DNA of 32,472 nucleotides from Eubacteriales bacterium (lineage in GTDB: Bacteria; Bacillota; Clostridia; Monoglobales; UMGS1388). The notes below the pieces were generated by a model. The model searched no databases and had not been told where the DNA came from. It saw only the letters and a list, made by a program, of their open reading frames with translations. The stretch is taken from contig JAQVYH010000018.1 of NCBI GenBank assembly GCA_029004515.1, positions 1-32,472 of the forward strand, read 5' to 3'. Position 1 is the first letter of the stretch; every line of letters starts with the position of its first letter. The position numbers and the translations under genes are program-made. Below, in pieces: positions 8,295-32,272 of this stretch.

Positions 8295-8654
8295 TCAATT
8301 TTGCTTTTTCTCTTTAACTGTATTTATTGATGAAATCAACATTCTGCGAATTTGTCCACAGTTATTTACGATTGCCTTATATGTCTCATCATTTATGTAC
8401 CCTGTCCTATTAAGTAACTCTAACCAATATTCAGATTCATAACATTCTTTTAAAGCAATCTGCATTTTTGAAATAAAATCTGCTGTTCCATGTGCATACT
8501 TAGATTCGTGAATATTGGCACCGATTGATGTCCCTGAACGCATAAGCTGATTTGTCATAACACTTTCTCTTTTGGTTTCCTTTATACTTTTGCACTCATT
8601 TATTATTTCAACCGCAAAATCTTTTGCTTTATCAAGCATTATACTCTCCGCCAT
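8295..8654 (-). CDS. Four-helix bundle protein (S23 / rRNA intervening-sequence family)
   Basis: A 119-residue helical protein of the family first seen as ORFs in 23S rRNA intervening sequences; the Avd accessory protein of diversity-generating retroelements shares the fold. The core signature is RSGTSIGANIHES (about 40-52), followed by FISKMQIALKECYESEYWLELL. A conserved-looking N-terminus supports the ATG at 8654. A second ATG at 8639 has a better GGAG site and cannot be excluded. No rRNA, reverse transcriptase or template repeat is nearby. Its ~210-nt leader is a dense hairpin array with its own promoter (separate entries), so protein and RNA array may be one unit. Function is unknown; binding nucleic acid is inferred from the family. 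Confidence 0.88.
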   Translation of the reverse strand: MAESIMLDKAKDFAVEIINECKSIKETKRESVMTNQLMRSGTSIGANIHESKYAHGTADFISKMQIALKECYESEYWLELLNRTGYINDETYKAIVNNCGQIRRMLISSINTVKEKKQN

Positions 8655-8681
8655 ATCATCACATCCAATACATTTGTTTTA

Positions 8682-8873
8682 GCTAAATTTTGCAACAAGT
8701 TGCAAAGCTAAATTACTCCACTTCGTTCCACAGCTAAATAACTACTTCGGAGTAGCTAAATTAAATTCGCCTTTTTGCTGACCGCAGGTCAATTTAGCTA
8801 CGAAGTAATTTAGCGTGCTTTAGTACATTTAGCTTGCTTTAGCGAATTTAGCTGAATTCACTTTGTGAATTCA
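8682..8873 (-). repeat. Array of GCTAAAT/ATTTAGC boxes with interleaved hairpins (leader of the S23-type gene)
   Basis: On the plus strand four GCTAAAT boxes (8682, 8707, 8733, 8755) are followed by inverted ATTTAGC boxes (8792, 8808, 8827, 8846) and one CTTTAGC (8837). The two halves are therefore mirror images. Between boxes lie small palindromes: TTTGCAAC-AA-GTTGCAAA (8689-8706), CTACT-TCGG-AGTAG (8742-8755), GACC-GCA-GGTC (8780-8790) and TGAATTCAC-TTT-GTGAATTCA (8853-8873). The whole array lies between the promoter and the start codon of the four-helix bundle gene, so it should be transcribed as its 5' leader. Confidence 0.85.
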
Positions 8874-8901
8874 TTATACCACAAATCATATCTTTTTGCA
8901 A
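8873..8901 (-). promoter_or_regulatory. Sigma-A promoter for the hairpin leader and S23-type gene
   Basis: On the minus strand TTGCAA (-35, 8896-8901) is followed by a 17-base spacer and TATAAT (-10, 8873-8878) with an extended -10 TGG. Transcription would start near 8866, inside the first EcoRI-type palindrome, giving a leader of about 210 nt. Confidence 0.75.
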
Positions 8902-21305: not shown

Positions 21306-21714
21306 AAATGCCATAGGTGCAAATTGCACTACAGATAATTCCCTCAGCTAGCATAACACGAAAAAAGAGCTATTAACGAAACAAGTCTTTTTTACTATGA
21401 AAGATGTTATGTTCTAGTTTATGTCAAGGCTGTTCAGCAGTGAATATTAGTGGCTCTCTTAAAGGGAGCTGTCAACGAAGTTGACTGAGGGATTGTTATG
21501 AACCAATCCTCCCGCCACCTTCGATGTTCCCCTCCTTTACACAAGGAGGGCTTTCACTGTTTTACTAAACTAATGTACTTTGAGCCTAACAAGAACGTAA
21601 ACTTGTCCTATGTTAGCGTTTTATCATAAAAACTTTTATATACAAACTATACTTTTGAATTCCGTTTTTTACACAAACGCAAGAATTAAACAAAAAAACT
21701 TTGTTTGTATATGC
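21306..21714. other. 409-base intergenic region rich in inverted repeats
   Basis: I see no gene. It holds GTGCAA-A-TTGCAC just after the SOD-like gene and a loose stem at about 21353-21412 (CATAACA/TGTTATG with an inner A6GA/TCT6). An ATTCCCTCAGCTAGC stretch near 21341 resembles one end of the hairpin element described next. The compact hairpin element itself lies at 21452-21551. CTAACA/TGTTAG and ATATACAAAC/GTTTGTATAT pairs lie before the oxidoreductase stop. Confidence 0.6.
21452..21551 (+). repeat. Gene-less copy of the DUF559-associated palindromic element
   Basis: It begins with GGCTCTCTT/AAGGGAGC (21452-21469), then GTCAAC-GAA-GTTGAC (21471-21485) and CTGAGGGATTG. It ends with CCCTCCTT-TACAC-AAGGAGGG (21530-21550). 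The same order of hairpins flanks the DUF559 gene at 31661-32109, with CTGAGGGATTG and CACCTTCGA/CCCCTTCGA matching. Here only ~35 bases replace the gene. Outer CAGTGAA (21438) and TTCACTG (21553) extend the inverted symmetry. Confidence 0.8.
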
Positions 21715-31660: not shown

Positions 31661-32109
31661 GGCTCCCTTGTGTAAAGGGAGCTGTCAGCTTAGCTGACTG
31701 AGGGATTGTCTGATTTCTTTATCAATAAGCATACATACCCCTTCAAAATTTTCCATAACATCAAGATTTGATATTCGTATAACCTTAATTCCATATTCTT
31801 TTAAATATTCAGTTCTCTTTTCATCACTTATAAGACCTTCATATTCATAATGCTGCGAACCATCAAGCTCTATCGCCAAGTTTGCCTTTGCACAATAAAA
31901 GTCTGCTATATATTTACCCAAAACTTTTTGTCTTGTTATTTTGATTGGATAATTCCTTAAAAAATCATACCATAAATGTCGTTCTTCTTTTGTCATATTC
32001 TTTCGTAGGTTTCTGGCAAACGGCACTATGTTTTTATTATACTTTCTATCCATTTACAACCCCTTCGAGTTTGCTTTTGCAAACCCACCTCCCCTTACAC
32101 AGGGGAGGC
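31661..32109 (-). mobile_element. Palindromic element carrying a DUF559 gene
   Basis: The element is bounded by two hairpins that are inverted copies of each other: GCTCCCTT-GTGTA-AAGGGAGC (31662-31682) and CCTCCCCT-TACAC-AGGGGAGG (32088-32108). Inside each lies a second hairpin, GTCAGC-TTA-GCTGAC (31684-31698) and GTTTGC-TTTT-GCAAAC (32069-32084). The DUF559 frame fills the space between and runs into the 31684-31698 hairpin. A short version without the gene lies at 21452-21551. Mobility is inferred from the repeat structure. Confidence 0.75.
31685..32053 (-). CDS. DUF559 (PDDEXK / very-short-patch-repair-like) endonuclease
   Basis: A 122-residue protein with the DUF559 nuclease core: NMTKEERHLW (Glu23/24), RQKVLGKYIADFYC (Asp51), IELDGSQHYE (Glu62, Asp64, His68) and IRISNLDVMENFEGV. 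The fold is that of Vsr/PDDEXK nucleases, predicted to nick or cut DNA. The last eight residues and the TGA stop are encoded by the repeat itself, with the stop inside the GTCAGC hairpin arm. The 5' flank is the other repeat end, and no standard promoter or strong ribosome site is visible (AAGGGGTTG precedes the ATG). It may act on the palindromes that flank it. Confidence 0.85.
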   Translation of the reverse strand: MDRKYNKNIVPFARNLRKNMTKEERHLWYDFLRNYPIKITRQKVLGKYIADFYCAKANLAIELDGSQHYEYEGLISDEKRTEYLKEYGIKVIRISNLDVMENFEGVCMLIDKEIRQSLSQLS

Positions 32110-32162
32110 TTTTTCTATTTTCGACAAAATTCTCCATATAATTAACGAACAATATAGATGTC

Positions 32163-32272
32163 AGAGAATTCATTTTACGACGCCATCAATTGATGTAGCG
32201 GTCAAATGACCGAAGAAAGTCGTCAGGCTTTAATAAGTTTTGCAAAGCAAAATTCAATATGCATCAATTATA
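32163..32272 (-). repeat. Promoter-driven cloverleaf-like repeat
   Basis: Read on the minus strand: TTTTGC-TTT-GCAAAA (32238-32252) comes first. A three-way junction follows, with outer ACGAC/GTCGT (32177-32181, 32219-32223) enclosing CGGTCA-TT-TGACCG (32199-32212) and CATCAATTGATG (32184-32195). It lies between the DUF559 element and the IS start. No reading frame of note is present. It may be a small RNA or a non-coding mobile repeat. Confidence 0.55.

Follow-up and report, generated by a model that had tools for sequence, protein, structure and literature searches.

A DUF559 nuclease gene between inverted palindromic ends as a candidate REPtron-like mobile element

Our analyses of a 32,472-nucleotide stretch of clostridial DNA (the window) revealed a 449-bp unit at positions 31661 to 32109 in which a DUF559 gene lies between two inverted ends. 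We consider it probable that units of this kind, about 440 bp long, are minimal mobile elements resembling REPtrons, with a Vsr/EDxHD-type DUF559 nuclease as their sole protein, acting on its own ends. Comparison of sequences shows a fixed unit, deletion derivatives, syntenic absence, a repeat type tied to the clade of the protein, and a protein under selection, and we infer that the DUF559 protein recognizes and cleaves the hairpins and carries out transposition. Short palindromic repeats without a known mover abound in many bacterial genomes; a dedicated nuclease partner from outside the RAYT family would account for some of these repeats and open their movement to testing.

Architecture of the element and its predicted nuclease

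The complete element was delimited by sequence comparison and runs from outer hairpin to outer hairpin. Read inward, each end consists of an A-tract, an outer hairpin (H1), a short link, an inner hairpin (H2) and a purine tail. The H1 stem is GCCTCCC or GGCTCCC with the loop TTGTGTAAA, the sequence of H2 varies, and the tail reads GAGGGR-TTGT. At the 3′ end of the element, H1 occupies positions 31661 to 31683 (core 31663 to 31681, CTCCCTTGTGTAAAGGGAG) and H2 positions 31684 to 31698 (GTCAGC-TTA-GCTGAC), both predicted by folding and backed by covariation. Arm–tail comparison showed the tail of this end, GAGGGATTGT, at 31700 to 31709 on the plus strand, to mirror the purine arm of H1. At the 5′ end, the tail GAAGGGGTTGT (32056 to 32066, minus strand) also serves the nuclease gene as ribosome-binding site, and folding places H2 at 32069 to 32084 (GTTTGC-AAAA-GCAAAC on the minus strand) and H1 at 32087 to 32109 (core 32089 to 32107). 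An outward T-tract at 32110 to 32114 (plus strand) follows and, together with H1, resembles a terminator. Folded as single strands, the window ends gave z-scores of −4.4 to −6.5, and none of 200 shuffles folded as well. These results bear out a preliminary description of this DNA, which had placed a hairpin with a GTGTA/TACAC loop at each end of the unit, the two being inverted copies of one another; its picture of the ends as hairpins holds, but each end comprises two hairpins and a purine tail rather than one hairpin. An Rfam search of the element matched zero families. The window genome contains one DUF559 gene and two exact copies of H1, both beside that gene, and a degenerate, gene-less, MITE-like copy with both inverted ends lies at 21452 to 21551. 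A 40-bp imperfect palindrome adjoins the element at 32170 to 32209.

The DUF559 gene (31685 to 32053, minus strand, 122 aa) is the sole gene-like ORF between the window ends. Its TGA stop codon (31685 to 31687, minus strand) lies within the outer arm of H2 and is encoded by the repeat, as is the C-terminal RQSLSQLS of the nuclease. That the repeat supplies these residues and the stop had been read from the window in the preliminary description. Among 49 related elements, the stop codon falls inside the tail/H2 part of the repeat in 45, and the start codon comes 5 to 6 nt past the GAGGGRT tail in 43. The stop had been assigned to the terminal hairpin; it is indeed within the repeat but belongs to the inner hairpin H2 instead of the outermost H1.

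The window protein matched PF04480 with 94.1 bits (cut-off 20.6; E = 5.9e-27), and its structure was modeled with a pLDDT of 86. Foldseek matched the model to NGO0050 (3HRL), the catalytic domain of I-Bth0305I (3R3P) and then Vsr (1VSR), which ranks lower than I-Bth0305I; the latter, with TM scores of 0.64/0.78, is the closest characterized fold. Thirteen residues are invariant across 48 relatives (T21, E24, W28, Q42, Y48, D51, F52, E62, D64, G65, H68, D77 and V106), among them the acidic and histidine residues E24, D51, E62, D64 and H68. By profile and fold, the window protein is thus predicted to be a Vsr/EDxHD-type PD-(D/E)XK nuclease. Judged by substitution rates, with a median dN/dS of 0.053 over 261 pairs, the gene is under purifying selection. 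A search of defense families with PADLOC returned weak matches only.

Linkage of the hairpins to DUF559

A search with the window protein yielded 82 loci (80 on named genome contigs and 2 viral), of which 75 have the hairpin on both sides when the pattern tolerates 3 substitutions; the set over-represents loci near the window clade, and a few matches are of other hairpin types. A hairpin-blind test, in which the 260 nt upstream of each gene were aligned with the reverse complement of the 260 nt downstream, gave a score of at least 30 in 44 of 62 DUF559 loci versus 3 of 225 positions taken from those loci as controls. Both counts run against the possibility, raised in the preliminary description, that DUF559 homologs commonly lack the hairpins. 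The same score was reached in 14 of 21 loci from a plasmid collection (Alphaproteobacteria, Deinococcota, Cyanobacteriota and E. coli), where the hairpin sequences differ, versus 1 of 84 controls. In the test of 62 loci, matched ends were absent at some stand-alone DUF559 loci, for example L017, L025, L077 and L092, and at E. coli ycjD a hairpin of the same type stands on one side only. There are 29 DUF559 matches in 51 genomes of the order, and H1 or a variant stands beside most of the strong ones. Class-wide, 22 of 293 genomes contain both the hairpin and a stand-alone DUF559 gene, 9 and 9 contain each alone and 253 contain neither (Fisher p = 4e-19, a value that is only indicative because the genomes are related). 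Thus, stand-alone DUF559 was undetected in 9 of 31 hairpin-bearing genomes, and most of the DUF559-only genomes that we inspected have other hairpin types.

Copies of H1 are dispersed in many Clostridia, and the rhizobial hairpin was found in 139 plasmid records. Five copies read in one genome (G044) are about 251 to 257 bp long (∼235-bp spacing) and hold the C-terminal third of the GCCTA-type DUF559 gene. Another genome (G035) has a copy of 114 bp that joins the start-codon region directly to the 3′ end. The gene-less copies thus include internal-deletion derivatives of the DUF559 gene in which both ends were kept. A hand count from the hairpin listing gave 26 inward-facing hairpin pairs, 10 with a full DUF559 gene, 9 with the ∼235-bp spacing seen in G044 and 7 short; cargo other than DUF559 was found in zero of these pairs.

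Hairpin type follows the protein clade. It requires 15 changes on the tree of 133 proteins, versus a shuffled mean of 36 (0 of 200 shuffles), a clustering to which near-copies and joint inheritance contribute and which therefore shows linkage rather than recognition. Three genomes (G030, G117 and G286) harbor two hairpin types, each DUF559 gene with its own.

The ends themselves covary. Every one of the 52 sampled ends pairs at H1; at H2, 90% of cells pair, and each of the four pairs tested shows compensatory changes. For H1 and H2 together the covariation score was 0.434, versus 0.092 when shuffled and at most 0.102 when slid. In 121 of 122 distinct ends, the 3′ arm of H1 and the tail have the same last purine, and each tail matches its own arm in 14 of 14 cases in which an element has two unlike ends. 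Over 21 families, which were hand-picked after inspection so that the relation counts as a lead, the tail matched the mirror image of the arm at 0.859 versus 0.762 permuted (0 of 2,000), and the arm as a direct repeat at 0.779 versus 0.740. A purine-motif triplex would explain a mirror-image tail. On visual inspection we rejected antiparallel pairing between the tail and the 5′ arm of H1, because the relation is a mirror image.

Insertion sites and alternative explanations

At one locus between convergent genes (L074), G287 carries the element and its sister genome G329 only a lone H1, which could just as well be the scar of a deletion or a target that was already there. A second locus (L169) has a 471-bp element between purH and purD; in several other Clostridia, 22 to 30 bp separate these genes. 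The hpa operon holds DUF559 in three Deinococcus species, at a different junction in each. Such syntenic sites without the unit, together with varied insertion points in one operon, support mobility at the level of species comparisons, in keeping with what the preliminary description had inferred. It had suggested looking for empty sites in sister strains: species-level cases (the lone H1 in G329 and purH–purD) were found, but none at strain level, and the relatives from phages and viruses were few in number and lacked clean flanks. Comparison of joined flanks across the order yielded no contiguous empty site. Many E. coli genomes have ycjD between sapF and fabI and others lack it; most of its region (L282 to L284, the sapF–fabI interval) was matched in 3,365 of 5,426 E. 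coli genomes. This interval was rejected as a clean empty site because both alternative alleles read hold an efflux operon instead.

Over 89 elements, A/T tracts are conserved outside both ends, and no target-site duplication was enriched at any offset. The flanks of most elements are mutually unrelated, and H1 without a tail makes up 7 of 75 hairpins read, mostly ends with a degenerate tail; ready-made sites are thus not the rule.

Several features of the surroundings were also seen. DUF559 interrupts operons, between sufB and sufC (L193), within a transhydrogenase operon (L203) and between paaD and paaZ (L210). In an Oscillospiraceae group (L132, L134, L141, L142, L149, L153, L155, L164, L170, L171, L175 and L186), a conserved stretch of ∼130 bp lies directly 3′ of the element and the 5′ flanks are unrelated; copies of this stretch, which may be a preferred target or a piece of a larger unit, also adjoin hairpins of other types. 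In the window clade, the motif GCATCTAAACC...ATGTCGAA, possibly a promoter-like repeat, recurs beside elements at separate loci (L023, L036 and related flanks). Elsewhere in the window (8295 to 8880), a short ORF, which we take to resemble four-helix-bundle proteins, stands beside a run of TTTAGCT/AGCTAAA-type repeats.

In the mechanism that we propose, the DUF559 nuclease would recognize the ends of its own element once folded, probably when the DNA is single-stranded or extruded, and would nick or cut at the ends or at a target. Because a PD-(D/E)XK hydrolase is not known to catalyze strand transfer, host replication or repair would finish copying or insertion. Copies that lack the gene would be mobilized in trans. 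The H1 stem and the outward A/T tracts probably double as a bidirectional terminator, which would make insertions between genes tolerable.

That same lack of known strand-transfer activity would also fit a passenger role for DUF559, for example as a repair or defense nuclease, with another enzyme such as an IS200/IS605-type transposase moving the palindromic ends in trans. Like the present units, IS200/IS605 elements show no target-site duplication, as single-strand transposition by a Y1 enzyme would predict, and Y1 genes occur in 9 of 14 element-bearing genomes. However, Y1 was not found in the other five (G036, G040, G287, G020 and G023, some of them incomplete), DUF559 is the only cargo of the 26 inward pairs, repeat type tracks DUF559 clade, and other phyla show the same pairing with hairpins of different sequence, so that we regard a passenger role as unlikely. 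We give slightly less weight still to homing as the whole explanation, whereby the nuclease would cut existing hairpin copies or empty alleles and recombination would copy the element in, creating no new insertion points by itself. The fold nearest to the model among characterized proteins is indeed the catalytic domain of a homing endonuclease, the lone H1 in G329 stands at the site of the G287 element, and the abundant gene-less copies would offer homologous targets; against this, most elements have flanks unrelated to each other, and tail-less H1 is rare.

The hairpins might instead be ordinary intrinsic terminators on either side of a small gene, their likeness incidental, which we judge very improbable. 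The outward T-tract after H1 at both ends and the position of some elements between convergent genes, as at L074, are what terminators would show, and a terminator role may coexist with the others. As the sole explanation it is refuted by features that terminators do not have: H2 and the purine tail, ends that are exact to the base at scores of unrelated loci, the compensatory changes within H2, the covariation of arm and tail, and the gene-less deletion copies. The preliminary description had allowed for terminators with no copies elsewhere, and the many copies, including deletion derivatives of the gene, contradict this. The REPtron-like element, with a nuclease acting on its own ends, is thus the reading that we prefer.

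Relation to known systems

Beyond this reading, we put forward more tentatively, as a possibility that we rate somewhat below even, a hitherto undescribed class of transposable element that spans phyla and whose palindromic units are moved by a Vsr/EDxHD-type nuclease. Its ends would consist of hairpins with mirror-image purine tails, possibly forming an intramolecular purine-motif triplex, and it would be the source of several orphan repeat families in Clostridia, rhizobia, Deinococcus, sphingomonads and cyanobacteria. A literature search, with subscription journals mostly outside its reach, returned no paper that links DUF559 to inverted repeats or MITEs; the function of the rhizobial RIME and AB/C repeats has been described as unknown (PMC2573895). 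If the proposal is true, REP-like logic was built twice from unrelated enzymes, and the common but seldom-named DUF559 family acquires a biological role.

The element shares with Vsr mismatch endonuclease and with Caulobacter VsrA, a Vsr-like DUF559 protein described as a putative host repair enzyme (PMC12907096), the superfamily of its nuclease; unlike vsrA, its gene belongs to a repeated palindromic unit. I-Bth0305I, an EDxHD-family homing endonuclease (PMC3943268; structure 3R3P), is closest to the modeled DUF559 protein in fold, but the element is not intron-borne, has no extra DNA-binding domains, carries its own hairpins and occupies many unrelated sites. As in MITEs with autonomous partners, internal-deletion derivatives retain both ends; in contrast to MITE/IS systems, target-site duplication was not detected and a transposase of known class is absent. 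The closest parallel is with REPtrons, in which RAYT genes lie between inverted REPs (PMC2817692, PMC3733652). Both have two inverted palindromes around a gene, dispersed gene-less repeats and a repeat type co-inherited with the enzyme clade, which upholds the likeness to REP/RAYT pairs, with an unrelated enzyme, drawn in the preliminary description. REPtrons, however, encode an HUH/Y1 tyrosine transposase, whereas the DUF559 element has a PD-(D/E)XK nuclease only; its H1–H2–purine tail ends are unlike those of REPtrons, and the GTAG tetranucleotide that tags the foot of the REPtron palindrome is absent from the aligned ends. Thus, the DUF559 element works like a REPtron yet lacks two of the features that define one, the HUH/Y1 enzyme and the GTAG tag.
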